A stretch of 42,025 nucleotides of DNA. Source: a virus. Position 1 is the first letter of the stretch. Every line of letters starts with the position of its first letter. The translations under genes and the position numbers were made by a program. The notes under the pieces are model-generated. The model was not told the origin of the DNA, ran no database searches, and was given only the letters and a program-made list of their open reading frames with translations. The stretch is from IMG/VR virus record IMGVR_UViG_3300017527_000137, positions 1 to 42,025 of that record. One strand, written 5' to 3'. Below, piece after piece: positions 140 to 21,064 of the stretch.

Positions 140-1201
140 ATGCACCCAGTCACCTCATATGCCAGGGCAGTGGTCCAGGGCAAGGTGCCAGCATGTCGAT
201 GGGCCATGCTGGCCTGTGAGAGGCTTCTCCTGGACCTGGCCCTCCAGAAAAAAAAGCCCTTCCCCTACAGGTTTGATGAGGAGCTGGCTGACAGGGCTGT
301 GGAATTCTACAGCTACCTCAAGCACTCAAAAGGCAAGTGGGCTGGGCAGGAATTCATCCTGGAGCCCTGGCAGATCTTCATAGTCGGCAACATTTTTGGC
401 TGGGTGAAAAAAGCAGATGGCCTCAGGAGGTTTCAGACAGTCTACATTGAGGTGCCCAGGAAAAACGGGAAAAGCACCCTGGCCTCAGGCATTGGCCTTT
501 ATTGTTTTATCGCGGATGGGGAGCCTGGGGCTGAGGTCTACACTGCAGCCACCAAGCGGGACCAGGCCAGGATCACTCATGGGGAGGCAGTCAGGATGGT
601 CCGAAAGTCTCCTTTCCTCAGATCCAGGATCAAGATCTACAAAGACAACATGCATATCATTGCCACTGCTGCAGTGTTTGAGCCCCTGGGGGCAGATGCT
701 GACAGCATGGATGGGCTCAATGTTTTGTGTGCTATTATTGATGAGCTACATGCCCACAAAAAGAGAGATACTTTCGATGTCTTGGAGACTGCCACTGGGG
801 CCAGGCAGCAGCCCATCTTATTTAGCATCACCACTGCTGGCTTTGATAGGCAGAGTGTCTGTTTTGAGCAGCATGACTACCTCACCCGAATCCTCAAGGG
901 GGCAGCAGACAGATCCTTTGTGGATGACACATATTTTGGGGTGATCTACGGCATTGATGATGATGATGACTACAGAGACCCCCATGCCTGGGCAAAAGCA
1001 AACCCAAACCTGGGGGTGAGTGTCAACCTGGAGGATCTGGAGAGGAAGGTGAGAAAAGCCTCAGCCTCTCCAGCCTCTTTGAATAATCTGCTCAGAAAGC
1101 ACTTTGATAAGTGGGTGCAGCAGAGTGTCAGGTGGATAGATATGGACCTGTGGAGGTCCAATGCTGACCCTGAGAAACCAGTCTATGAGGAGGTGGCATG
1201 A
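140..1201 (+). CDS. terL: terminase large subunit, ATPase half of a split gene
   Basis: 353 residues matching the N-terminal packaging ATPase of HK97-like large terminases (Terminase_1 type), which pumps DNA into proheads. Visible motifs: EPWQ adenine-contact motif (75-78), Walker A PRKNGKS (106-112), Walker B CAIIDE (197-202) and the coupling motif FSITTAG (228-234). The protein stops after a typical linker (RWIDMDLW...), where family members of roughly 500-580 residues continue into an RNase H-like nuclease. That nuclease is a separate gene at 2155-2832. The ATG at 140 directly follows the upstream stop. The end overlaps the next gene by ATGA. The ATPase call is firm; that the two halves act together is inference. 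Confidence 0.93.
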   Translation: MHPVTSYARAVVQGKVPACRWAMLACERLLLDLALQKKKPFPYRFDEELADRAVEFYSYLKHSKGKWAGQEFILEPWQIFIVGNIFGWVKKADGLRRFQTVYIEVPRKNGKSTLASGIGLYCFIADGEPGAEVYTAATKRDQARITHGEAVRMVRKSPFLRSRIKIYKDNMHIIATAAVFEPLGADADSMDGLNVLCAIIDELHAHKKRDTFDVLETATGARQQPILFSITTAGFDRQSVCFEQHDYLTRILKGAADRSFVDDTYFGVIYGIDDDDDYRDPHAWAKANPNLGVSVNLEDLERKVRKASASPASLNNLLRKHFDKWVQQSVRWIDMDLWRSNADPEKPVYEEVA

Positions 1202-1386
1202 AAACAGAGAGTTTCGATATGAGGTGCCTGCACTGTGGAGAGTATAATTCCACCATAAAGAAGCATTGGCCCAGCACTTCCCAGGAGATGCCAGACCCAG
1301 ACCTATACAGAATTGACTGCCCTGATTGTGGCAACTCTGAATTGATAAGAATCCCCACCTACCCTAATGGAGGATTAAAAGCATGA
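1198..1386 (+). CDS. small zinc-ribbon protein inside the terminase split
   Basis: 62 residues with two CxxC pairs (CLHCGE near residue 10 and CPDCGN near residue 41), the pattern of a zinc ribbon. It starts at an ATG overlapping the ATPase stop (ATGA), with GAGGAGG just upstream, and its end overlaps the methyltransferase start in the same way, so translation is coupled. No specific family recognised. It could be a nucleic-acid-binding or protein-contact module. Its position between terminase halves suggests, without proof, a link to packaging or to the adjacent methyltransferase. Confidence 0.75.
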   Translation: MKTESFDMRCLHCGEYNSTIKKHWPSTSQEMPDPDLYRIDCPDCGNSELIRIPTYPNGGLKA

Positions 1387-2015
1387 ACCACAGAGAGTAT
1401 GTAGGACCACTGAAAAACTGGGACAAGGTGGCAGCAGGGGCTTTCTGCCTGCTGGCCGGGCTGGGCCTCAGAGGGCACCACAAGCTGCTGGACATAGGCT
1501 GTGGCTCCATGAGGATAGGCAGGCTGCTCATCCCCTACCTGGACAAGGGGTGCTATTATGGGGTGGAGCCTGAGAAGAAAATGCTGGAGGCAGGGGTCAA
1601 GCATGAGCTGGGCATGGAGCTGAAAAGGGCAAGGGGGGCTCATTTCAACAGCTCTGCCAGAGCCTTTGCCACAGTCCACTCCAAGCTCAAGCTGGACTTT
1701 GCCCTGGCCAATTCCATCTTCACCCATGCAGGCCCTGACATCATTGCAGAGTGGCTCCAGGTTTGCAGCCACCACCTCAAGGCCAATGCCCTGCTGGTGG
1801 CCAGCTTTAGGCAGGGCAGGAGAGACCTGGGTACAAAGCCATGGTCCTACCCAGGGACCATCACATACCGCTTTGAGACCATGGCTGAGATGGCCAGGGA
1901 GCATGGCCTCCACTGCCTCATGCTGCCCATAAAGCACCCAGAGCCCACCCAGGCCTGGATAATTTTTATCAACCCCCTGTTTGACAGGAGAAGGCTGGAG
2001 AGGGTGGGGCTATGA
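1383..2015 (+). CDS. class I SAM-dependent methyltransferase
   Basis: 210 residues. Motif I for S-adenosylmethionine binding is clear (LLDIGCGSMRIGRL, about residues 36-49), followed by YYGVEPEKKML, where an acidic residue ends strand 2, and LDFALANSIFTH as the motif IV region. There is no DNA target-recognition domain and no DPPY or PC motif, so a small-molecule, glycan or protein substrate is more likely than DNA bases. It is translationally coupled (ATGA) to the zinc-ribbon gene before it and the membrane peptide after it. It sits between the two halves of the large terminase, an unusual place for such a gene. Substrate unknown. Confidence 0.85.
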   Translation: MNHREYVGPLKNWDKVAAGAFCLLAGLGLRGHHKLLDIGCGSMRIGRLLIPYLDKGCYYGVEPEKKMLEAGVKHELGMELKRARGAHFNSSARAFATVHSKLKLDFALANSIFTHAGPDIIAEWLQVCSHHLKANALLVASFRQGRRDLGTKPWSYPGTITYRFETMAEMAREHGLHCLMLPIKHPEPTQAWIIFINPLFDRRRLERVGL

Positions 2016-2155
2016 GAAAGCAGATGCATCTCATCTCAATCATAATGGGGCTGGGGGCTATGGTGGGCCTGGTTATCCATGCAGGTCTGGTGACCACTGC
2101 TCTCATCCTCTTGCTGATGTGGGGCAATAACATGGAGCAGGAGTACAGGGCCTGA
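2012..2155 (+). CDS. 47-residue membrane peptide in the terminase split
   Basis: The ATG at 2012 overlaps the methyltransferase stop (ATGA). The stop at 2153-2155 overlaps the nuclease start (TGATG). The peptide is basic at the N-terminus (MRKQ), then about 32 almost uninterrupted hydrophobic residues, enough for one long or two short membrane helices, and ends in a short acidic tail (EQEY). The tight overlaps on both sides support translation. No family recognised. Confidence 0.6.
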   Translation: MRKQMHLISIIMGLGAMVGLVIHAGLVTTALILLLMWGNNMEQEYRA

Positions 2156-2832
2156 TGTCTGTTGACTGGGAGGCCACAAAGAAAAAATACATCCACAGGG
2201 TCTGCTTTGGAGGGATTGACCTGTCTGCTGTGAAGGATCTCACAGTGTGGGTGCTGATCTTCCCTGATGCAGATGACTGGGAGCAGCTGGATATTCTCTG
2301 CCAGAGCTGGGTGCCTGAGGCCCAGCTGGTCAATCCAAAAAACAGATACAGGGACCAGTATGCTGGATGGGTCAGGGAGGGCTGGCTGACTGCCACCAGC
2401 GGCAATGCCATTGACTATGACCTGGTGAGAGCTGCTGTCAAAGCTGATGCCCAGATCTTCGACATTCAGTCTGTGGCCATAGACAGGCTTTTCCAGGGCT
2501 ATGAGTTTGAGCAAAAACTCAACACAGACCTGGGGGGCCATGAGAAAAGGCCCAGGGTTTTTCCCTGTGGGATGGGCTTTTTGTCCATGGCCCCCCTCAC
2601 TAAAGAGTTTGAGACCAGGCTGCTAAAGAAAAAATTAAACCATGGCCACAACCCTGTGCTGACTTTTTGCGCGGATAATGTGGCTGTGAGAATGGATACT
2701 GCAGGCAACCTGAAACCAGACAAGACTGAAAGCCAGGGCAAGATAGATGCCATTGTGGGCATCCTCCTGGCCCTTGACAGAGTGCTGAGGCAAAAGAAAC
2801 CTGAACCCCCACCCCTGCCATCTTTTATGTGA
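2155..2832 (+). CDS. terL: terminase large subunit, nuclease half of a split gene
   Basis: 225 residues equal to the C-terminal RNase H-like nuclease of HK97-type large terminases, which cuts concatemeric DNA at packaging. Expected acidic residues are visible: D22 in FGGIDLS, D110 in SVAIDRL and D198 in GKIDAIVG. The family stretch GMGFLSMAPLTKEFE is also present. It begins where the ATPase gene's linker would have continued, and has its own ATG in a TGATG overlap with the membrane peptide gene, so it is translated separately. The product is probably functional because all key residues remain. Confidence 0.92.
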   Translation: MSVDWEATKKKYIHRVCFGGIDLSAVKDLTVWVLIFPDADDWEQLDILCQSWVPEAQLVNPKNRYRDQYAGWVREGWLTATSGNAIDYDLVRAAVKADAQIFDIQSVAIDRLFQGYEFEQKLNTDLGGHEKRPRVFPCGMGFLSMAPLTKEFETRLLKKKLNHGHNPVLTFCADNVAVRMDTAGNLKPDKTESQGKIDAIVGILLALDRVLRQKKPEPPPLPSFM

Positions 2833-5308: not shown

Positions 5309-6025
5309 ATGAAAGCAGGCAGAAAAATGAAAGGAAAAGCTGCAAAAAAAAGAAATGTGATCGACGGGAGAGAGGTCAGGATTGCACCCCTCAACCTGGC
5401 CCTGGAAAGCAGAGCTGACCAGGAGCTGCCCCACATCACTGGTTATGCTGCTGTGTTCAACAAACCCAGTGTTGACATGGGCTTTGTGGAGAGGATTGCC
5501 CCTGGGGCCTTTGCCAAGGCTCTCACCAGGTCTGCCCCTGTGGCCCTGGTCAACCATCAGGTCTCCGAAATCATAGGCAGAGCAGGGGTCAACCTGGACC
5601 TGGCTGAGGACAAAAAAGGCCTGTGGATCGACATCTCTCCTATTGAGACCCCCAGGTTTGAGCAGGTAGTGGCAGAGATCAGGGCTGGCCTGTTTGTGGG
5701 CCAGAGCTTTGGTTTCACTGTCAAGGCCGATGAGTGGCAGGATCTGGATACCGACAAACCCAAACGGCTCATCACAGAGGTGAACCACCTCTATGATGTG
5801 GGGCCTGTGGTATTCCCTGCCTACACTGCCACAGACATTGGTGTGAGGTCTGTGGACCAGGCTCAAAAGACATTAGAGGCTGCACTTGAAGCCTTTCGGA
5901 TTCAAACCAGTGGGATCACTGGAAACCCTGGCAGTGATGATCAGAAGATCAAGGACAGTTATGCCAGGAATTTTGTAAGAGTCAAAACCCTAGCGGCACA
6001 ATTACTTTTTAAAGGAGGGCTGTGA
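5309..6025 (+). CDS. prohead maturation protease
   Basis: 238 residues of the HK97 gp4-like (peptidase U35) family, a serine protease with a herpesvirus-protease-like fold that trims the capsid's scaffolding delta domain. Catalytic candidates: His83 in VNHQVS and Ser133 in GQSFGF. The family opening HITGYAAVFN and the stretch VGPVVFPAY are also clear. It is the normal neighbour between portal and capsid genes and overlaps the capsid start (TGATG). The first 20 residues are basic. The start could instead be the ATG at 5327. Confidence 0.92.
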   Translation: MKAGRKMKGKAAKKRNVIDGREVRIAPLNLALESRADQELPHITGYAAVFNKPSVDMGFVERIAPGAFAKALTRSAPVALVNHQVSEIIGRAGVNLDLAEDKKGLWIDISPIETPRFEQVVAEIRAGLFVGQSFGFTVKADEWQDLDTDKPKRLITEVNHLYDVGPVVFPAYTATDIGVRSVDQAQKTLEAALEAFRIQTSGITGNPGSDDQKIKDSYARNFVRVKTLAAQLLFKGGL

Positions 6026-7362
6026 TGAATTATCTCAAACGACTCCAGGCCAGATATGCAAAGATCCTGGAAAGGATGCAGGAGATTGATGGCCTGCCTG
6101 AGGATGGCTTCACCGATGACATCAGGGCTGAGTTTGAGGGCCTGGTGGCAGAGGCCGAAACCCTGCAGGAAAAGATCAATGTGGCAAAGAGAGCCCTGGC
6201 AGTGTTCAAGGCAGACCAGCCTGCCCCCCCTGCCCCTGGTGACCTGCCCCCAGACCCCAACATGCCTGCCCAGGAGCCCAGAGGTCACCACCCTGCCCAG
6301 ATAACCAGGGACGGGGGGGATGCCCCCTTTGAGGATCTGGGTGAGTTCATGATGGCAGTCTATCGGGCTGCTGGCCCCAATCCCAAATGGGATGACCGGC
6401 TCAACTCCAGAGCTGCCTCTGGTGCCTCTGAGGGGGTGCCCTCAGATGGTGGCTTCTTGGTCCAGACGGATCTGACAAACCAGCTGCTGCAGCTGACCTA
6501 TGCTGCTGGCCAGCTGGCCCCCCGGTGCCTGCGGATTCCCATCGGCCCCAATAGCAATGGCCTGAATGCAAACCTGGTGGCCGAAACCTCCAGGGCTGAC
6601 GGCTCCAGGTGGGGTGGGGTGAGATCCTACTGGGTAGAGGAGGCAGGAGCCCTGACTTCCAGTAAGCCCAAGTTCAGGCAGACTGACATGAAGCTCAAAA
6701 AGCTGGCTGGTCTGTTCTATGCCACTGATGAGCTGCTGGCAGATGCTGTGGCCCTGGAGAATGCTGCTATGACTTTCTTTCCGGCTGAGTTTGCTTTCAA
6801 GCTGGATGATGCCATTGTGGAGGGCAACGGCACCGGGATGCCCCTGGGCTTCAAAAACTGTGGGGCACTGATCAGTGTCACCAAGGAGACCGGACAAGCA
6901 GCCACCACACTTGTCACAGAAAACATCGAAAAGATGTGGATGAGAATGAGCCCCATGAGCAGGTCCAAAGCCATCTGGCTCATTAACAATGACTGCTGGC
7001 AGCAGATCCTGGGCCTCACCAAGAGTGTGGGCACCGGGGGGGCTCCTGTATTCATGCGTCCTGGCTCTGGCATTGTGGATGCCCCTGAGGGCACCCTGTA
7101 TGGCAGGCCCATTGTCAGCATTGAACAGTGCGAGACCCTGGGCACCAAGGGTGACATCTACTTTGTGGATATGAGCAAATACTTGTTGATCGACAAGGGG
7201 GGCATCAAGACTGCTGCCAGCATCCATGTCAGGTTTCTCTACGATGAGATGACCTTTCGATGGATTCTGAGAGTGGATGGCCAGCCCATCCCTGATCAGC
7301 CTTTAACGCCTTTTAAAGGCACAGTCACCACCAGCCCCTTCGTGACCCTGAATGCCAGGTAA
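6025..7362 (+). CDS. major capsid protein, HK97 fold
   Basis: 445 residues. An N-terminal helical delta domain (residues 1 to about 60, charged and coiled-coil-like) is followed by a Pro-rich linker and then the HK97-fold shell domain (GGFLVQTDLTNQLLQL, TSRADGSRWGGV, FRQTDMKLKKLAGLFYATDELL, GNGTGMPLGF, SKAIWLINNDCW). The upstream protease is expected to remove the delta domain. The ATG at 6025 sits 6 bases after AAGGAGG and overlaps the protease stop; a GTG one codon earlier is weaker. This is the main shell protein of the virion. Confidence 0.95.
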   Translation: MNYLKRLQARYAKILERMQEIDGLPEDGFTDDIRAEFEGLVAEAETLQEKINVAKRALAVFKADQPAPPAPGDLPPDPNMPAQEPRGHHPAQITRDGGDAPFEDLGEFMMAVYRAAGPNPKWDDRLNSRAASGASEGVPSDGGFLVQTDLTNQLLQLTYAAGQLAPRCLRIPIGPNSNGLNANLVAETSRADGSRWGGVRSYWVEEAGALTSSKPKFRQTDMKLKKLAGLFYATDELLADAVALENAAMTFFPAEFAFKLDDAIVEGNGTGMPLGFKNCGALISVTKETGQAATTLVTENIEKMWMRMSPMSRSKAIWLINNDCWQQILGLTKSVGTGGAPVFMRPGSGIVDAPEGTLYGRPIVSIEQCETLGTKGDIYFVDMSKYLLIDKGGIKTAASIHVRFLYDEMTFRWILRVDGQPIPDQPLTPFKGTVTTSPFVTLNAR

Positions 7363-7989: not shown

Positions 7990-8661
7990 ATGAGCAAGCA
8001 CAAAAAGAAACCAGCCGGAGATCCTGCCAGGATAAAGCTGGGCCTGGCCCTGCCCTGCACTGATGCCTTTATGCCCACACCCTTTGTGGACAGCTTTATC
8101 TGCCAGAGCAGGCCTGGCTTTGTCTACCTCAGGCCCACCTCTCATGGCCCCATCTACACTGTCAGGAATGAGCTGGTGGACCAGGCGCTCTCCCAGGGCC
8201 TGGAGTATATCCTCTGGATGGACACTGACCAGATCTACCCTGCTGACAGCTTCTATCAGCTGATCAATCACAGGAAAGACGTTGTAGTGGGCAAGACTCA
8301 CAGAAGATACCCTCCATATGATCCCATCCTGCTGAGAGGCAAGATGGGCAGCTGGGAGTCAGTGCCTGTGGAGGAGTGGGGCAAGGGGGGCCTGGTGGAG
8401 GTGGACAGCACTGGCTTTGGTTGTGTGCTGATCAAAACAAAAGTGTTTGAGGCCCTGGAGAGGCCCTACTTTGACCTGGTGTATACAGAGGAGGGCAAGC
8501 CCATTGGTGAGGACTTCTACTTCTGGGCAAAGGTCAAGGCAGCTGGTTTCAGAATTTTTGTGGACTGCTCTCTGAAAATTGGGCATCTCAAGTATACTGT
8601 GATCAATGAGCAGTCATACCATGCATATCAAGTCTCAAAGCCACAGGAACAGGTGGCATAA
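7990..8661 (+). CDS. GT-A type glycosyltransferase, copy 1
   Basis: 223 residues with a nucleotide-sugar transferase core: YTVRNELVDQAL, then the metal-binding DxD in WMDTDQ (78-80), RRYPPYDPIL (105-114), STGFGCVLI and GEDFYFWAKVKAAGF. It is clearly paralogous to the gene at 19913-20572, which keeps DTDQ, RRYPPFDPIL, ETGFGF and GED-xxx-AKAAGF. The site AGGAGGCGATAG precedes the ATG. It is the first gene of the cassette between capsid and connector genes and lies next to the likely decoration gene. Glycosylation of virion or surface proteins is a reasonable inference; donor and acceptor are unknown. Confidence 0.85.
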   Translation: MSKHKKKPAGDPARIKLGLALPCTDAFMPTPFVDSFICQSRPGFVYLRPTSHGPIYTVRNELVDQALSQGLEYILWMDTDQIYPADSFYQLINHRKDVVVGKTHRRYPPYDPILLRGKMGSWESVPVEEWGKGGLVEVDSTGFGCVLIKTKVFEALERPYFDLVYTEEGKPIGEDFYFWAKVKAAGFRIFVDCSLKIGHLKYTVINEQSYHAYQVSKPQEQVA

Positions 8662-8674
8662 AAGGAGGGAAAGC

Positions 8675-9649
8675 ATGAAACGCCTTTCGATCATCCTGGC
8701 TGCTGTACTGGTGGCCTGTCTAATCACTGCCCCTGCCTTTGCAGGGTGGTCCACTGTATTCTCCAAGAAACAACCAGGGGGCAGCTTTCTGGCTGCTGAC
8801 ATTGCCAAGGTCACTGGCGGCTCCATCTTCTTTGTGGACGGTAACACTGGCACTGATGCGGCTGGCTATGGCCAGAGCCCTGACAGCCCTGTGGACACTC
8901 TTGATTATGCCATCGGCCTCTGCACTGCCAATAAAGGCGACATCATTTATGTCTTTGCCCAACACGCAGAGACTGTCACTGCTGCCATCACTGCTGACAT
9001 TGCTGGCATCACTATTGTGGGCATGGGCCATGGGAACAGCAGGCCCACCATCACAGGCAATGGCACCATTGATGCCATGACGGTGACTGCCAATGATGTC
9101 ACCATTATGAACCTGATTTTTGCAGCCCCAGGCACCGATGCCCAGACGGCTGACATCAACATTGCTGCAGCCAGGTGCAGTGTGATCAACACTGTCCACC
9201 ATGGCAGTGACACTGGCGATAATAAAGTTGACATTATCACCATCACTGCTGCAGGCCATGATGCCTATCTGGATGGGGTCAGAATCTACAATGACACTGT
9301 GGAGTGTGTGGGTGGTATAACCTTGGAGGGGGCAGCTGCCAGAGTGGTGATCAAGGACACTATGGTTTTTGATAGTGTGGGGTTTACCAATGGCAGCTTA
9401 TCTGATGAGGCCACTGCCACTGCCCTGTTTGTAGTGGACAGCTACTTCTCCAATGCAAAGGCCGATACTGTCAACCTTGAATTCGGGAATAATACCACAG
9501 GCATGATGGTCAACTGCTTTTCCAATGGCAGGCACACCACCATTGGGTCCAACATTGCCCCTGGCACAGGCATGGCATTCTATGAGACCTACACTGTTGA
9601 GGAAGCAGCCAAAAATGGTATGCTCTCTCCAGCAGTGGATGCCGACTAA
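8675..9649 (+). CDS. exported right-handed beta-helix protein
   Basis: I start at the ATG at 8675, which follows AAAGGAGGG and opens a clear Sec signal peptide (MKRLSIILAAVLVACLITAPAFA, cleavage before GW, about residue 24). The mature part of about 300 residues looks like a pectate-lyase-type beta-solenoid: GSIFFVDGNTGTD, PDSPVDTLDYAI, then repeated Val/Ile/Asn-Gly rungs (ITIVGMGHGN, VTIMNLIF, VVIKDTMVFDS). Such folds bind or cut polysaccharides in tail spikes, but a signal peptide is abnormal for a virion protein. It lies between a glycosyltransferase and a sulfotransferase. Catalytic residues are not evident. Confidence 0.85.
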   Translation: MKRLSIILAAVLVACLITAPAFAGWSTVFSKKQPGGSFLAADIAKVTGGSIFFVDGNTGTDAAGYGQSPDSPVDTLDYAIGLCTANKGDIIYVFAQHAETVTAAITADIAGITIVGMGHGNSRPTITGNGTIDAMTVTANDVTIMNLIFAAPGTDAQTADINIAAARCSVINTVHHGSDTGDNKVDIITITAAGHDAYLDGVRIYNDTVECVGGITLEGAAARVVIKDTMVFDSVGFTNGSLSDEATATALFVVDSYFSNAKADTVNLEFGNNTTGMMVNCFSNGRHTTIGSNIAPGTGMAFYETYTVEEAAKNGMLSPAVDAD

Positions 9650-9675
9650 ACCCAGGGCAGCTGGAGGCGGGAAGG

Positions 9676-10239
9676 GTGAAAACAATCATCGTTCTTGGAA
9701 TGCACCGAAGTGCCACCTCTCTCATAGCAAAAGGCCTGCATGAGGCCGGGGTCTGGATGGGGGAGAGGCTCCTGGGGGCCTCTCCTTCCAACACTCACGG
9801 GCATTTTGAGAACCTTGATTTTGTGGCCCTCAATGACTACCTCCTCAGCCAGGCAGGGGGCTCCTGGGATAATATCCCAGCCCTGGACAGGATCATAGAA
9901 GCTGGGGCAAAGAATGCAGGGGCCATCCAGAGGACCATCCTGTGCAACATCAGGCAACCTGTCTGGGGCTGGAAAGACCCCAGGACCACACTCACCATCC
10001 CTGCCATCTATCCCTACATCAAAAAGTATAGCCCTGTTTTTGTGCCCTGCTTTAGGGCACCCAAGGATGTGGCGGCATCTCTTGAAAAAAGAAACGGAAT
10101 GCACCCAGCCGATGGGGAGAGGCTGGCCAGGGGCTATAACGCCAGGCTGCTTTCCTTTCTTACTGAATTCCTGGAGGTGGAGAAGTTTGGCAATTTCTAC
10201 AATTTTACCCCATCAGCCGAAGTGGTGGGGGGTGCTTAA
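9676..10239 (+). CDS. PAPS-dependent sulfotransferase family protein
   Basis: 187 residues with the PAPS-binding loop at the N-terminus (VLGMHRSATSL, residues 6-16), followed by the family stretches ERLLGASPSNTHGHFEN, LDFVALND, GWKDPRTTLT and APKDVAASLEKRNGM, matching bacterial and phage sulfotransferase-like proteins (Sulfotransfer_3 type). The start is GTG at 9676, after GGAGGCGGG. It probably moves sulfate onto a carbohydrate or protein. The next gene, another glycosyltransferase, follows with a TAATG overlap, so a sulfated glycan is an attractive but unproven product. Confidence 0.85.
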   Translation: MKTIIVLGMHRSATSLIAKGLHEAGVWMGERLLGASPSNTHGHFENLDFVALNDYLLSQAGGSWDNIPALDRIIEAGAKNAGAIQRTILCNIRQPVWGWKDPRTTLTIPAIYPYIKKYSPVFVPCFRAPKDVAASLEKRNGMHPADGERLARGYNARLLSFLTEFLEVEKFGNFYNFTPSAEVVGGA

Positions 10240-10838
10240 TGCAAGTATCAATCCTCATCCCCTACATCAGGCCAGAGAATATTGAGCAGGTGATGCACCT
10301 GGCTGTCAAGAATGCAGGCATCCCGGCCCCTGAGATCCAGATCCTGGCTGAGTATGACCAGGGCAGGGTAGGGTGCCCATTGATGGTCAAGAGGCTTGTG
10401 AGCAGGGCCTCAGGCAGCTATTTGTGCTTTATCGGGGATGATACCAGGCCCCTGCCAGGGTATTTGAAACATGCCATCGACCAGATGGCCCTGCTGCCTG
10501 ACGGCTGGGGCCTGGTGGGGTTCGATGACCTAAGTGGCAGGATACTGCCCACCCACTTCCTGGCAGACAGGAGGGTGCTGGACCTGCTGGGGGGTGAGCT
10601 GTTTCACACTGGGTACAGGCACTGCTTTTGCGATAATGAGTTGATGGACAGGCTGACTGCTAAAGGACGTTTTCTTTATTCAAAACTGGCTGTGGTGCTG
10701 CATGACAACCCCATTGTCAAGGGCACTGAGATCACTGGTGAGTATGCCAAAATATATCATAGCAACCAATATGTCAGAGACCAGATGCTGTACTTTAAAA
10801 GAAAAAAAGGGGGGTTTCCAAATGAAAAGCATTCATAG
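10239..10838 (+). CDS. GT2-like glycosyltransferase
   Basis: 199 residues. The start SILIPYIRPENIEQ and the DxD-like GDDTRPLPGYL (66-76) are those of inverting GT-A glycosyltransferases of family 2 type. A downstream CDNELMDRL segment fits the acceptor and catalytic region. The ATG overlaps the sulfotransferase stop. Its 3' end overlaps the start of the next exported-protein gene by 17 bases. It is not closely similar to the paralogous pair at 7990 and 19913. Acceptor unknown. Confidence 0.82.
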   Translation: MQVSILIPYIRPENIEQVMHLAVKNAGIPAPEIQILAEYDQGRVGCPLMVKRLVSRASGSYLCFIGDDTRPLPGYLKHAIDQMALLPDGWGLVGFDDLSGRILPTHFLADRRVLDLLGGELFHTGYRHCFCDNELMDRLTAKGRFLYSKLAVVLHDNPIVKGTEITGEYAKIYHSNQYVRDQMLYFKRKKGGFPNEKHS

Positions 10839-11283
10839 ACTTTGCCTGGCCATCATCCTCTGCCTGGCCTTTGCTGTGCCAGGGTTTGCAGCTGAGTCCA
10901 CCACCCCCACATATTACAACCCAGGCAGGCAGGCCTTTGTGGTCAAGATTGCATGGGTAGCTGCTGCTGGTGCCACCCATGCAGACTATGCCATCCCGTC
11001 AGCTGCCATGGATGTGATCCTGGCTGGGGGCTACTACCTGTTCAAAGCCAGGACAGTGCCCTCTGGGGTGGCTGTGCCAGCTGCAAACTATGACCTGACC
11101 CTGGACACTGCCAATGGCTTTGATGTCCTGGATGGCAACCTGGCCAACAGGTCCGACACTGCCACAGAGATTGCTGTGCCCAGTGTCTATGCAGAGCCAA
11201 TAGTGGACCAGCTGACGGTCACCTTTGCAAACCTGGGGGCCAATGGGGCTGGTGATTTGTATCTATACTTTGCAAGATATTAA
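10822..11283 (+). CDS. exported protein of unknown function
   Basis: 153 residues starting at the ATG at 10822, after GGGGGG. A signal peptide is visible (MKSIHRLCLAIILCLAFAVPGFA, cleavage before AES, about residue 23). The mature domain of about 130 residues is beta-rich (FVVKIAWVAAAGATHADYAI, YYLFKARTVPSG, YDLTLDTANGFDVLDG, QLTVTFANLGANGAGDLYLYF) and resembles small beta-sandwich structural modules of phage tail or capsid proteins. It has no cysteine and no enzyme motif. It is one of five adjacent signal-peptide genes. Confidence 0.8.
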   Translation: MKSIHRLCLAIILCLAFAVPGFAAESTTPTYYNPGRQAFVVKIAWVAAAGATHADYAIPSAAMDVILAGGYYLFKARTVPSGVAVPAANYDLTLDTANGFDVLDGNLANRSDTATEIAVPSVYAEPIVDQLTVTFANLGANGAGDLYLYFARY

Positions 11284-11295
11284 GAGGTGACCAAA

Positions 11296-12918
11296 ATGAG
11301 AAAACTATTCATAGCCACAGCCATGGCAGCTCTGCTCTGCTTTTCCTCTTTTGTTGCCTCTGGCCCCTTCCCCTATCCCACTGGCACTGCCGGGGGTGAC
11401 TTTGACTTGGATGGTGGCAAGCTCATCCTGGATGCAGATGGGGATACCTATTTTGAAGAAACAAGCGATGATGTAATCCGTTTTTACGCCTCCGGTCAGG
11501 CTTATGACTTTGGGCAAGCTGGGATATATCGAGCTACTGCCGGCCGAACTTCTATTCGCTTTGATACTGCGGGATCATTTTCGGGCGCTAACTATGGATT
11601 CTACTCCGATGGGAATACCGGCATGCTGCGATATGATGCCGATCAACTTGCATTCGCCGCTGGCGGCGTCGAAGCCCACCGCATAGTCGAAGCGAACTCC
11701 ATTGTCTATCAGATTTTCGGTTCGACTCAACAGGATAGCGTAACCGATTCCACCACTGATGGGACCACTGCACTCACCAAGGCTGGAGACAACTTTGCCA
11801 CCACCTGTCAGGTGGGTGATGCAGTCCTGATCTGGGGTGGCACCACTACTGCCGACTATGGCGTATATTATATCACAGTGGTTGTGTCTGACACTGAGCT
11901 GACCCTGAACACAGCACCATCTGGCAGTGACGCAGATGTTGACTTCTACGTCTTTAGGAATGGCACCATCCAGACAGGTGAGAGAACCTATTATCTGGAG
12001 GGCACTGCCACAGCAGGTGAGTCTCCCGATATCATAGGCTCCATCCATGAAGCAGGGCTGGGGGATCGGTTGACGTTTGGGCTGGATGAGGCAACAAGGT
12101 CAATGGTCGTTTGTGATGCCGGGGATGTTGATAAAGACTATGGCCTCACTGTAAATGCTGATCCAACATTTTCCTTATATAATGCAGCAGGGAACAAGAG
12201 GGCCGATATTGCCTGGAATATGTTCTATGGCCGAAGTGATGTTGTAAATATAATGGGCTATTATGGTGTTCGGCTTGCATTGTTTGGTGACATGGCCTCA
12301 GGCAGTCCCTTCACAATAGATTCAGATGCTGCAAAAGAACTGACCGACACAGACAATGAGCAAAACTGGCTGAATGTCCTTCCGAAAATCAATCAGTCTG
12401 CCACCGCCTCCTATAATGGCCTCAAAATCTATATCACTGAAACAGCCACTGGGGATGGCACCACTGGCACTGCTGGCCAAAATACCCTGATCCTGGCAGG
12501 CACAGACAGTGATGACGATGCCTTCATAGTGGACACTTCTGGCAACCTGGAAACCCCTGTGGAGTGCAAGACTAACAAGGCATCAGAGCTGAGTGACAAC
12601 TCAGACCCCCACTCTCTGGTGGTCAGAGAGCTGCACAACATCATTCTGACCAACAGTGAATCAGCTGGGGCCGATGAGTGGGACTTCCCTGCCAGGGCTG
12701 AGGGCTGGAATTTTATCTTCATTATTGAAGCAGCCCAGAACGTGACCCTGGACCCCAATGGTGCAGAGCAGTGGTATCTCAATGGCACCCAGCTGGCAGC
12801 AGGTGAGGCTGTAGTCAACACAGCCCCCACAGTGGGTGAGTCCATTACTTGTTTCTCAACTGAGTCAGCAGTCTACTGTGAGAGTGCCTATGCTGACTGG
12901 ACTGAGGAGACCCCTTAG
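11296..12918 (+). CDS. exported tail-fibre-like beta-repeat protein, mosaic composition
   Basis: 540 residues from the ATG at 11296 (6 bases after AAGAGGTG; a GTG at 11287 is weaker). The N-terminus is a signal peptide (MRKLFIATAMAALLCFSSFVAS). Residues about 40-130 carry short Asp/Gly-rich beta motifs (GGKLILDADGDTYFEE, DDVIRFYASGQ, IRFDTAGSF, GMLRYDADQLAFAAGG) as in phage fibre shafts. A C-terminal domain (NIILTNSESAGADEWDFPA...GAEQWYLNGTQLAAG) resembles structural receptor-region modules. Bases about 11455-11755 are rich in CG, unlike the flanks, which indicates recombination inside the gene. An exported fibre-like protein is unusual; function unknown. Confidence 0.8.
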   Translation: MRKLFIATAMAALLCFSSFVASGPFPYPTGTAGGDFDLDGGKLILDADGDTYFEETSDDVIRFYASGQAYDFGQAGIYRATAGRTSIRFDTAGSFSGANYGFYSDGNTGMLRYDADQLAFAAGGVEAHRIVEANSIVYQIFGSTQQDSVTDSTTDGTTALTKAGDNFATTCQVGDAVLIWGGTTTADYGVYYITVVVSDTELTLNTAPSGSDADVDFYVFRNGTIQTGERTYYLEGTATAGESPDIIGSIHEAGLGDRLTFGLDEATRSMVVCDAGDVDKDYGLTVNADPTFSLYNAAGNKRADIAWNMFYGRSDVVNIMGYYGVRLALFGDMASGSPFTIDSDAAKELTDTDNEQNWLNVLPKINQSATASYNGLKIYITETATGDGTTGTAGQNTLILAGTDSDDDAFIVDTSGNLETPVECKTNKASELSDNSDPHSLVVRELHNIILTNSESAGADEWDFPARAEGWNFIFIIEAAQNVTLDPNGAEQWYLNGTQLAAGEAVVNTAPTVGESITCFSTESAVYCESAYADWTEETP

Positions 12919-12919
12919 A

Positions 12920-14188
12920 ATGAAAAAGCTATTGCTTGCAACTATAGCCCTGCTGCTTTCCCCTGCCATTGCCTGTGCTGGTGCTGCCCTGATGACAGCA
13001 GCACAGCCAGCTGGTGGATCAGTCATTGTCAGAGTCACCCCTGTACTAGCAGCTGGTGAGAGGGGCGGGTTGATTATTTGCGGGAACGGGCCGGAATCGT
13101 TTACTGCCATTGCATTAGGCGATGACGATATGGAGGACGATGACTCGAGTTGGCTGGATGATTCGCTTGACGGTGGAGAAACGCAGGCCCAATCAGCCGC
13201 GCAAAAACACGGTGGATCGAATTCTCGCTTTATTGACCAGGCCGACGATAACGAGGGGATGTATCAGGTTTTTGGATCGCATACCTCTGGTGATTTGTTC
13301 CAGGTTGAGGCCTGGGCCTATTCGACTTCTGGCAACACACGGACACGGCTATGGGATGGTGCTACAGCTTGTATAAATGCGACTCATACTATACACGGGA
13401 CTGCCACATGGGTAAAATGCCTATCGCGGGGAACCTCCGCAAATACTGGCAACCATCAACTAATGATGGAAGTATCGTCGGCGGATTCTCAAATTTACTA
13501 TGACGATATTTCCATCAACAAAATCAATGCCCCTCTAACCGCCCTAATCTGCGAAATCGACCGCACCCAAGACTTGCTAATTCTGACGAAACGGGTTGCC
13601 GGCACCGAAACAGTTTTAATTTCTGAAAGCATTACTTACGCCGATAATCATGAGTTGGTAGTGGTCAAGGAAGGTCAGTCGGTTGTTGTTTTTTATACTG
13701 ATGCGGGAGACAACGACAACATCCAAATCGGCGCGACTCAAACTGTCACCGAAACATACGGACGACGGCATTATACGACCGGCGACGATTCGAGCTTCAC
13801 CGGATACTCTCATAAAATGTTGGCGATAGGCATAGACAAAATATCAACCTGGGCGAATATTAGTTTTGATACGTTTACCTCAAGTGGCACGGCGATCACC
13901 TCTGCTATAGATACAGAACCCGCGGGTGGTTATGCCGCCGCAGAGGCCACCTTATCTGCCGGTAGCATCTATCGAATAGAAGTTGTTTTAACATTAAATA
14001 GTGGTGATTCACCCGACGTCATGGTCGGTAGCGGTCAAGAAAATATGACAAGGCAAAACCTTTCGGCAGGGTCAAATATTTATTATTTTATCTGTGTCGC
14101 TACTTCTGGAAATAAGGACCATTTATATTATTACAGCCCGGTTTTAAGTAATTTTTCATCAACGCACAAGATGGAACTGGTCAAATAA
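12920..14188 (+). CDS. exported protein, mostly within a CpG-rich foreign segment
   Basis: 422 residues from the ATG at 12920, two bases after the previous stop, with GAGGAGA upstream. Signal peptide MKKLLLATIALLLSPAIACAG. A central part (about residues 90-200) looks like a carbohydrate-binding jelly-roll: FQVEAWAYSTSGNTRTRLW, ATWVKCLSRG, QIYYDDISI. Later residues resemble a second beta domain (HELVVVKEGQSVVVFYTDAGD). From about 13060 to its end the DNA is rich in CG and AT-richer, unlike the phage backbone, while its first 140 bases match the backbone. The body was therefore probably acquired by recombination under a resident signal peptide. Confidence 0.8.
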   Translation: MKKLLLATIALLLSPAIACAGAALMTAAQPAGGSVIVRVTPVLAAGERGGLIICGNGPESFTAIALGDDDMEDDDSSWLDDSLDGGETQAQSAAQKHGGSNSRFIDQADDNEGMYQVFGSHTSGDLFQVEAWAYSTSGNTRTRLWDGATACINATHTIHGTATWVKCLSRGTSANTGNHQLMMEVSSADSQIYYDDISINKINAPLTALICEIDRTQDLLILTKRVAGTETVLISESITYADNHELVVVKEGQSVVVFYTDAGDNDNIQIGATQTVTETYGRRHYTTGDDSSFTGYSHKMLAIGIDKISTWANISFDTFTSSGTAITSAIDTEPAGGYAAAEATLSAGSIYRIEVVLTLNSGDSPDVMVGSGQENMTRQNLSAGSNIYYFICVATSGNKDHLYYYSPVLSNFSSTHKMELVK

Positions 14189-14553
14189 TGAAAACACTAT
14201 TTCTCGCAATCCTACTATTCCCGGCGCTTTGCTTCGCCGATTCCGCGATTTTCAAGGTGCCGATTGATCCGGCAAAGATTGGAGACGAAACGGCGCAAGC
14301 GATGGCGGCACTCAGGGGAAAGTATGCTGGTGACATGGTGCTTGGCTACAGCCTGCTAGAGTCCACCACTAATCTGGCAGAGCCAGGTGTGGTCCTGGTC
14401 AGGGTGACTTTCCACCCCAAAAAGGATGCCAAGAAAACAGCCCAGGCCATTGTAGATGAGCTGAAAGCAAAGCCTGACGTATCAAGCGGTACTGGCGATG
14501 ATTTAAAGTCCTTTAAAATCCAGCATGTCAAAACAATGATCTCAGAAAAATAA
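14188..14553 (+). CDS. exported small protein spanning a composition boundary
   Basis: 121 residues. The ATG overlaps the previous stop (TAATG). Signal peptide MKTLFLAILLFPALCFA, then an alpha/beta domain (VVLVRVTFHPKKDAKKTAQAIVDELKAKP) with one repeating beta-helix-beta unit. Bases up to about 14325 are CpG-rich like the preceding gene; after that the backbone composition returns (AGG, CTG, GCC codons). The right recombination edge therefore lies inside this gene. No family recognised. Confidence 0.75.
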   Translation: MKTLFLAILLFPALCFADSAIFKVPIDPAKIGDETAQAMAALRGKYAGDMVLGYSLLESTTNLAEPGVVLVRVTFHPKKDAKKTAQAIVDELKAKPDVSSGTGDDLKSFKIQHVKTMISEK

Positions 14554-14567
14554 ATGGAGGTGACAGA

Positions 14568-14870
14568 ATGAAAGCCCTGCTGATTATCCTGGCCCTGTCT
14601 CTGGCCCTGCCCTGTGCAGCTGCTGAGTACGTTGTCAAAACGAAAGACTTCACAGTGTACTCAACTGACGATGTGATTGTGCAGGAGACTGTCACGGTTG
14701 AGCAAACTGAGGATTACACCCTGAGATATGTCAACCGGACCTTGGCTGCTACCAATGCAGCCATCACAGATCTCCAGGCAAAGAAAGCAGAGCTGGAAGC
14801 CATCAAGGTTATCCTTGACGATAAGGTCAAGGGTGTAAAGCTGAAGGAAAAGGAGCTGGCACCTGAATGA
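14568..14870 (+). CDS. exported coiled-coil protein
   Basis: 100 residues with GGAGGTGACAG before the ATG. Signal peptide MKALLIILALSLALPCAAA. A short beta part follows (EYVVKTKDFTVYSTDD), then a helical, probably coiled-coil C-terminus (ITDLQAKKAELEAIKVILDDKVKGVKLKEKELA). A periplasmic coiled coil near lysis genes can hint at a spanin-like or membrane-bridging role, but there is no transmembrane anchor or lipobox here. The end overlaps the next start (ATGA). Confidence 0.78.
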   Translation: MKALLIILALSLALPCAAAEYVVKTKDFTVYSTDDVIVQETVTVEQTEDYTLRYVNRTLAATNAAITDLQAKKAELEAIKVILDDKVKGVKLKEKELAPE

Positions 14871-19069: not shown

Positions 19070-19479
19070 AGGTTGAATTTTATCAGGGCAATTTCACAAA
19101 AATCCTGGAGGACGGCCTCAAGAAAGCCACCAAGAAAGGGGCAAAGATTGTGGCCGATGATGCCAGGGCCAGGTGCCCCAAAAAGACTGGCAAGCTGGCT
19201 GCAACCATCAGGGTGAAGAAAAGCAAGTTTGAGGACGGGGGCCACCTGGTCTATGTGGGAGATCGTGAGGCGTACTATGGCCTCATGGTGGAGCTGGGCA
19301 CCCCTGGCACCTGGAGCAGGTCCAGGAGGGCTGCAAAAAAGGCAGGCCTGAAAAGGAGAACCCTCAAGGTGGAGAGAAAGCCTGTGGGTCCAAAGCCCTA
19401 CATGAGGCCAGCCTTAAAAGCCAATAAACAAAGAATCCTGCAGGAGTTCCAAGACATCATAGGACATGACAAAAAATGA
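19066..19479 (+). CDS. HK97 gp10-like neck/tail protein
   Basis: 137 residues with the family pattern: an N-terminal helix, then RCPKKTGKLAATIRV, VYVGDREAYYGLMVELGT, and a basic stretch ending in KPYMRPAL before a C-terminal helix. It is very basic in the middle (RSRRAAKKAGLKRRTLKVERK). It acts in head-tail joining. Both ends overlap neighbouring genes (ATGA), as usual for this module. Confidence 0.88.
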   Translation: MKVEFYQGNFTKILEDGLKKATKKGAKIVADDARARCPKKTGKLAATIRVKKSKFEDGGHLVYVGDREAYYGLMVELGTPGTWSRSRRAAKKAGLKRRTLKVERKPVGPKPYMRPALKANKQRILQEFQDIIGHDKK

Positions 19480-19898
19480 AAGCACTCATCCAGGGCCTCT
19501 ATAATCTGTTTATGACGGTCAACACCTTTCGGACTGCCATCGGTGGCAGGATGTTTTTCGGTGAGGCACCCAGCAACACTGCCTATCCCTTTGCAGTCCT
19601 GCACCTGATCACAGACACACCAGAGAGGCTGCTGGATGACCAGCTGGAGGATGTGCTGCTGCAGATCAATATCTATAGCAACAAACCTGAGAGTGCCCAG
19701 GAGGTGGTGGAGATCTATCAGAAAGCCATTGCCCTGTTCGATGATGCCACAGTCACTGTGGCTGGCTATTTTTGCTACTATCTACACAGGGGCTTGAGCC
19801 ACCTGTTGAGAGATCCCAACACGGGGGATGATGAGAGAGGGGCCTGGCAGTACTCCATTGAGTATGAGGCCCTGATCAGAGTGCAGCCGGGAGACTAA
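19476..19898 (+). CDS. tail terminator protein
   Basis: 140 residues. The features PFAVLHLITDTPERLLDDQLEDVLLQINIYS, AQEVVEIYQKAIALFDD and a late beta strand fit the DUF3168/gpU-like tail terminator group that caps the growing tail tube and binds the neck. It has the canonical position after the gp10-like gene. In most related phages the tail tube gene follows immediately; here a glycosyltransferase gene intervenes. Confidence 0.82.
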   Translation: MKALIQGLYNLFMTVNTFRTAIGGRMFFGEAPSNTAYPFAVLHLITDTPERLLDDQLEDVLLQINIYSNKPESAQEVVEIYQKAIALFDDATVTVAGYFCYYLHRGLSHLLRDPNTGDDERGAWQYSIEYEALIRVQPGD

Positions 19899-20611: not shown

Positions 20612-21064
20612 ATGGGATTCAAGGTGGGTAAAGACTGTAAAATCTCTCTTGCTGCCAATAAGGTTGTGGGCATGGGAGACTGGAGCATGACTGGGATCAG
20701 CACTGAGGAGCATGACATCAGTGAATTCCAGGTGGACTGGAAAAAATTTGAGATGGGGCTCAAGGACGGTGGCAGCATTGCTGTCAGTGGCCTCTTTGAT
20801 CCTGACAACAGCCCCCAGGAGCAACTGAGAGAGGCAAATCTGCATGGCTCAGACCTGGCAACGGTGAGGCTCTATATCGACAAAACCAGTTATTATGAGC
20901 CCTGTCAGACAACTGGCTACTGGTCACCCACTACCACCACCAGCTCTGCCCCCACTGTCAAGAGCTGGGTGAATGTCAGATCTTTCAATGTGAAAGCTGA
21001 CAAAAACGGGATGGTCCAGATTGACTTCCAGCTCAAGGTCAGTGGCCTGATGGTGCTGGTGTAG
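20612..21064 (+). CDS. major tail tube protein
   Basis: 150 residues with tail-tube (TP901/lambda gpV-like) traits: VGKDCKISLAANKVVGMGDWSMTG, DISEFQVDWKKFEMGLKDGGSIAVSGLFDPDN, LATVRLYID and a C-terminal strand VQIDFQLKVSGLM. It forms the stacked hexameric rings of the tail. It lies between the tail terminator/glycosyltransferase genes and the tail chaperone genes. A long structured leader follows before the chaperone. Confidence 0.85.
   Translation: MGFKVGKDCKISLAANKVVGMGDWSMTGISTEEHDISEFQVDWKKFEMGLKDGGSIAVSGLFDPDNSPQEQLREANLHGSDLATVRLYIDKTSYYEPCQTTGYWSPTTTTSSAPTVKSWVNVRSFNVKADKNGMVQIDFQLKVSGLMVLV

Follow-up and report, generated by a model that had tools for sequence, protein, structure and literature searches.

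Glycosyltransferase and sulfotransferase-like genes beside the capsid and tail tube genes of a siphovirus, and their probable role in dressing the virion

Why would a siphovirus keep genes for glycosyltransferases and a sulfotransferase-like protein among the genes for its own particle? This question is raised by IMGVR_UViG_3300017527_000137, a virus record of 42,025 bases that was analysed over its whole length (the window) and compared with a sample of about 270 loci of relatives (L numbers below). A first-pass annotation had proposed that virion proteins, or exported proteins encoded nearby, carry glycans that are possibly sulfated. Our analysis indicates that glycans, perhaps sulfated, are probably attached by the phage to its own particles, because one glycosyltransferase (GT) family is almost always found beside the tail tube gene and evolves with it.

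Gene order and enzymes of the window

The gene order of the window is of the siphovirus type, and the location of the terminase small subunit at the right end (41350) and of the large subunit (TerL) at the left end suggests that the genome is near-complete. All four enzyme ORFs (GT1, GT2, GT3 and the sulfotransferase-like ST) were found on the plus strand at the positions annotated before, and most ORFs have good ribosome-binding sites (Table 1). A group I or group II intron as the source of the split terminase (140-2832) was not supported, with no Rfam intron match. Since SAM methyltransferases are frequent partners of GT3-GT1 cassettes in relatives, the methyltransferase between the TerL halves possibly takes part in the same glycan pathway, although we suggest this only weakly. 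Within the late operon, the product of 14867-15313 matches Agglutinin_C (PF18021) near threshold, at 26.5 bits.

Table 1. Features of the window that are referred to in the text
Feature	Position	Strand	Remarks
TerL ATPase half	140-1201		TerL split, ORF 1
SAM methyltransferase	1383-2015	+	PF08242; between both TerL halves
TerL nuclease half	2155-2832		TerL split, ORF 2
Major capsid protein (MCP)	6022-7362	+	HK97-type, phrog_10; likely head substrate or neighbour
Putative decoration protein, 164 aa	7433-7927	+	Named by position only; no PHROG match
GT1, 223 aa	7990-8661	+	PF03452, phrog_1574; head-slot lineage
Beta-helix-like protein	8675-9649	+	ORF 8606 of the first-pass annotation; GGAGG site before the start at 8675
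ST, 187 aa	9676-10239	+	Short sulfotransferase-like P-loop protein
GT3, 199 aa	10239-10838	+	Predicted GT-A domain; start overlaps ST stop
Signal-peptide protein, 153 aa	10822-11283	+	Mature part homologous to head-slot proteins
Tail terminator	19476-19898	+	phrog_176, phrog_78
GT2, 219 aa	19913-20572	+	Predicted GT-A; tail-slot lineage
Tail tube protein	20612-21064	+	phrog_158; weak PF16460

GT1 and GT2 had been described as paralogous GT-A enzymes placed next to capsid and tail genes, and both statements were borne out. The two proteins are 35% identical (E 1e-38) and have intact DxD and ED motifs; GT1 is encoded behind MCP and the 7433 ORF, and GT2 between the tail terminator and the tube. 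Both match phrog_1574 and phrog_34859, which are annotated as glycosyltransferase. R59, D78, D80, E174, D175 and H199 (GT1 numbering) are invariant in the family alignment that includes both proteins. The DxD-type motif was located at DTD78-80 in GT1, DTD74-76 in GT2 and GDD66-68 in GT3, where it reads GDDT, and the ED motif at E174-D175 in GT1 and GED169-171 in GT2. Donor-binding residues, whose lack the first-pass annotation had named as speaking against its proposal, were thus found in the enzymes by alignment.

GT3 itself gave weak family matches only, and the closest of the 68 GT3-related viral loci are 43-50% identical. In many relatives the GT3 and GT1 domains form a single protein of about 400-460 aa. 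A structure model was made of one such fusion (L017), in whose alignment the GT1, GT2 and GT3 of the window are included. The model (pLDDT 91.7) contains two GT-A domains with Z scores of 15-19 to GT-A enzymes, so that GT1, GT2 and GT3 are all predicted to have the GT-A fold. Its first, GT3-type domain has WrtF and polypeptide GalNAc-transferases as nearest fold relatives (Z about 16.6). The best fold match of its GT1-type domain is A197 of STIV (PDB 2c0n; Z 19.2 over 172 residues), a GT-A protein of an archaeal virus, although the identity is about 15%, the viruses are unrelated and the gene context is different. GT1 also resembles the Anp1/Mnn9 mannosyltransferases of family GT62 in its DxD motif and overall fold and scores above the Pfam cut-off (PF03452; 31.0 versus 28.8 bits), but this match is short (51 residues) and there is no eukaryotic polymerase complex. 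From fold and motifs, transfer from nucleotide-sugars is predicted for GT1, GT2 and GT3. No 19-residue stretch with a mean hydropathy above 1.2, i.e. no transmembrane segment, was found in these three proteins or in ST.

ST carries the motifs GMHRSATS (P-loop), KDPR and RAPKDVAASL. The GMHRS P-loop, KDPR and the 3'-phosphate motif R127-x7-S135 are kept across the ST family, for which use of PAPS is predicted. Sulfotransfer_3 (PF13469) was matched by 14 of the 23 members of the family alignment (E<=0.1, best 1e-7), while ST of the window alone gave no Pfam match at E<=1 and a PDB sequence search with the ST profile found nothing. In the fold ranking of the ST model (pLDDT 90.3), seven tyrosylprotein sulfotransferase rows came first (Z 8.9-9.9), followed by adenylate kinases (Z 8.2); the Foldseek E value was only 0.014, and the first viral match was a phage sulfotransferase, albeit a weak one. 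This ranking is supportive, not conclusive, for a sulfotransferase fold. ST is probably a short PAPS-sulfotransferase-like protein, which resembles the PAPS sulfotransferases (PF13469; TPST1/2) in P-loop and 3'-phosphate motif, and probably in fold, and differs from them in size, the viral members having about 170-190 aa and all of them a short C-terminus. Bacterial relatives are about 30% identical, several are annotated as sulfotransferase, and they mostly lie in polysaccharide regions beside GT genes. The sole INPHARED match, in Pseudomonas phage Y4, is an unannotated record marked 'unverified' and was not counted as support.

The coupling of ST to a third glycosyltransferase was also confirmed. 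The two reading frames overlap in the window, and in relatives ST lies immediately 5' of the GT3-GT1 fusion (L014/L090, L043/L097 and L092). A scan of the viral collection gave 32 ST loci. Behind MCP genes, ST was found with three capsid types, namely phrog_10 (window and L117), phrog_1328 (L090, L092, L095 and L098) and phrog_283 (L093). In the tail terminator/tube region it was found in L089, L091, L097 and L112, by gene order in L113 and L118, and also in L180 and L193. Near virion genes a GT is usually adjacent to ST; about half of the viral ST homologues are located elsewhere, not beside MCP or tube genes. Given the nature of the enzyme family and the repeated occurrence of its members together with GTs near virion genes, sulfation of the virion may reasonably be proposed.

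A glycosyltransferase family linked to the tail tube gene

When viral contigs were scanned with GT1, ST or GT2 as single proteins, no relative was retrieved, and the broad GT1 alignment held no stretch conserved enough for scanning. The tail tube served as query in a further scan of the viral collection, so that loci would not be chosen for their GTs, and the 109 tube loci obtained over all scans were clustered at 80% identity into 60 clusters. A GT1-family gene lies directly upstream of the tube gene in 52 of these clusters, and the GT slot before the tube is empty in a single one. Within three genes upstream, a GT1-family gene is present in 56 of the 60. Because the tube-scan motifs were derived from GT-linked loci, these clusters do not represent tail tubes at random, and the frequency applies to the present tube family only. 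A scan of genome contigs gave two loci only, a prophage in a Desulfovibrionaceae MAG (L088), with the order terminator-methyltransferase-GT3GT1, and a Parachlamydia MAG contig.

The distances of tube and GT1 proteins are also correlated. Over 49 non-redundant loci the rank correlation between tube and GT1 was rho 0.638, compared to 0.105 for terminator and GT1, 0.267 for chaperone and GT1, and 0.111 for tube and chaperone. The chaperone gene adjoins the tube gene too, yet it hardly tracks the distances of tube or GT1. The partial correlation between tube and GT1 was 0.635, a value reached in 0 of 2000 permutations. It was seen in fused (0.70) and unfused (0.58) loci alike; in the unfused subset the terminator tracks GT1 as well (0.51), and co-divergence has to be read with the caveat that neighbouring genes can be transferred together. 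The GT family is thus a near-obligate neighbour of the tail tube gene and evolves with it. For the tail tube, the proposal of virion-protein glycans is well supported by this pairing and co-divergence, whereas for the head it depends on gene placement and a lineage of three members.

Candidate acceptor sites in the tube protein are Ser93, in YIDKTSY, and an S/T-rich segment at residues 99-119. Tubes of loci that are free of a GT (L227, L232, L239, L249, L250 and L266) differ within residues 88-119, with Asn at the position of Ser93 and no S/T-rich segment. The Ser93/Asn contrast holds for 30 GT-linked versus 6 GT-less loci, or 19 versus 1 after clustering (p = 0.05); all six GT-less tubes form one clade. 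Ser93 is possibly the acceptor; the contrast is striking but based on this single clade.

In L089, the interval between the tail terminator and tail tube genes is precisely the site of a cassette of about eight genes (8001-13723). It encodes ST, two radical SAM enzymes, GT17, a GT2/GT92-like enzyme (family names), GT3, GT1 and a 201-aa ORF, and is a candidate for a complete glycan pathway. The full order in this locus is MCP-dec-GT1 ... terminator-ST-rSAM-GT17-rSAM-x-GT-GT3-GT1-tube, and it therefore has both a GT in the head slot and a cassette in the tail slot.

Head slot and neighbouring signal-peptide proteins

In the GT tree, GT1 of the window groups with the head-slot GTs of L117 and L089 (SH-aLRT 99), and GT2 falls among the tail-slot GTs. 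According to this tree, GT1 and GT2 are old lineages that have been faithful to the head and the tail slot, respectively; a recent GT1/GT2 duplication was ruled out. The arrangement is not due to chance, because homologues stand in the same order in L117 (MCP-dec-GT1-x-ST) and in a related order in L089. Head-slot GTs are rare: the lineage has three members only, and of the 80 best relatives of the window MCP, 70 loci could be evaluated, and no GT1 gene occurs among the four genes following MCP in any of them. In more distant phages (L006, L007, L008 and L010), GTs of the phrog_1574 type lie close behind unrelated capsid genes.

The gene before GT1 had been called a capsid decoration gene. It is indeed conserved behind MCP in relatives (L117, L089, L204 and others), but 'decoration' remains a name given by position. 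The notion of adjacent exported proteins was likewise retained in part. Textbook Sec signal peptides open six ORFs of the late operon (8675-9649, 10822-11283, 11287-12918, 12920-14188, 14188-14553 and 14568-14870). Homologues of the 8675 and 10822 products in other phages (L141, L197, L217 and L213), on the other hand, are head-slot proteins that begin at the mature N-terminus and have no signal peptide. Judged from these homologues, the neighbouring 'exported' proteins include head-slot proteins of virion type to which signal peptides have been added. By eye, the same add-on was seen in L030:7928 versus L014:7934 and in L204:8884 versus L201:4787.

Possible roles of the enzymes and their meaning

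We consider it fairly likely that these genes form one virion-dressing set in two places, with GT2 acting on the tube, GT1 on a head protein, and GT3 and ST extending and sulfating the glycan. During late expression in the host cytoplasm, GT2 would transfer a sugar from a host nucleotide-sugar to the tail tube protein encoded by the next gene, possibly to Ser93 of the YxDxTSY motif or to the adjacent S/T-rich loop. Its head-slot paralogue GT1 would carry out the same reaction on the capsid or on the 7433-encoded protein. GT3, which in relatives is part of a two-domain GT3-GT1 enzyme, would add a further sugar and ST a sulfate from PAPS. The donor and the order of these steps are inferred from the genes. 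The outcome would be a short, possibly sulfated and negatively charged glycan coat on the particle, which may provide shielding, adsorption or stability.

Serotype-converting gtr cassettes consist of a membrane-bound bactoprenol glycosyltransferase and a flippase. The four enzymes of the window are free of membrane segments, which argues against the idea that they remodel the O-antigen or capsule of the host, for superinfection block or serotype conversion, and that the virion-gene site merely tolerates them as cargo. The location of bacterial ST relatives in polysaccharide regions beside GTs fits this idea, as do pelagimyophage GTs near tail fibre genes, which are read as O-chain modifiers in PMC7029224. 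A near-obligate, co-diverging partnership with the tail tube is unexpected for surface conversion, however; no integrase was recognised in the window, and both slots are free of annotated GT genes in Caulobacter phage Kronos, an MCP relative. We regard host-surface remodelling as unlikely. That the genes are ordinary morons, i.e. mixed cargo acquired horizontally at insertion-tolerant junctions with no role in modifying the virion, we strongly doubt. Cassette content is variable (methyltransferases, radical SAM enzymes and several GT families), and some promoter-like and terminator-like matches were found, the promoter-like sites above the shuffled mean. Against this speak the recurrence of the same GT family beside the tube in 56/60 clusters, the retention of slot-specific lineages and genes that abut or overlap in operon fashion; nor was a clear flanking promoter-terminator pair of their own found.

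If the 9676 protein were a different P-loop transferase, for instance a kinase with the glycan as its substrate, this would explain why adenylate kinases come close behind in the fold list and why the C-terminus is short in all viral members. This identity is quite unlikely given the seven tyrosylprotein sulfotransferase rows ahead of them, the conserved 3'-phosphate motif and P-loop, PF13469 in the majority of the aligned family and the phage sulfotransferase, though weak, as first viral fold match. Modification of phage DNA (base hypermodification) is a known activity of phage GTs, as stated in PMC12619734, and is highly improbable here: the GTs are located with virion genes, the substrates of their fold relatives are proteins or glycans, and no hydroxymethylpyrimidine or base-modification gene was recognised among the part of the ORFs that was scanned. 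Virion modification is the best reading, because membrane-free cytoplasmic enzymes are encoded next to both of the most abundant surface proteins and one of these enzymes co-diverges with the tube.

A precedent exists in mycobacteriophages, whose capsid and tail tube have been reported to be glycosylated, with the glycans acting as a shield (Freeman et al. 2023 as cited in PMC12619734). Phage-encoded GTs and the same two virion proteins are concerned there as is predicted for the window; in the present case the putative target genes each have an adjacent GT gene, ST is linked, and the divergence of the tail GT follows that of the tube. PF13469-type sulfotransferase genes also occur in the genomes of OM43 phages and cyanophage S-SRM01; their function is stated to be unclear, and the relevant portion of PMC10580990 does not report linkage to capsid or tail tube genes. 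Neither a sulfated phage virion nor a phage sulfotransferase acting on virions was described in the papers searched. GT lineages dedicated to the head and to the tail, the pairing of GT and tube genes and cassettes with ST are apparently new.

More tentatively, and with some doubt on our part, the system may be widespread, each major virion surface protein having its dedicated adjacent GT, with optional GT3, ST, methyltransferase and radical SAM modules leading to a sulfated, glycosaminoglycan-like coat. If the virion-dressing explanation is true, tail tube glycosylation would be inherent to a large group of siphophages from the environment, and the GT-tube pair would be an enzyme and its substrate encoded by two neighbouring genes, testable by co-expression. 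The linked sulfotransferases would point to virions that are sulfated, a state that seems not to have been described and that would affect adsorption, the charge of the particle, its diffusion in mucus or sediments and its recognition by the immune system. This would also supply a function for the phage sulfotransferases whose role is now called unclear.
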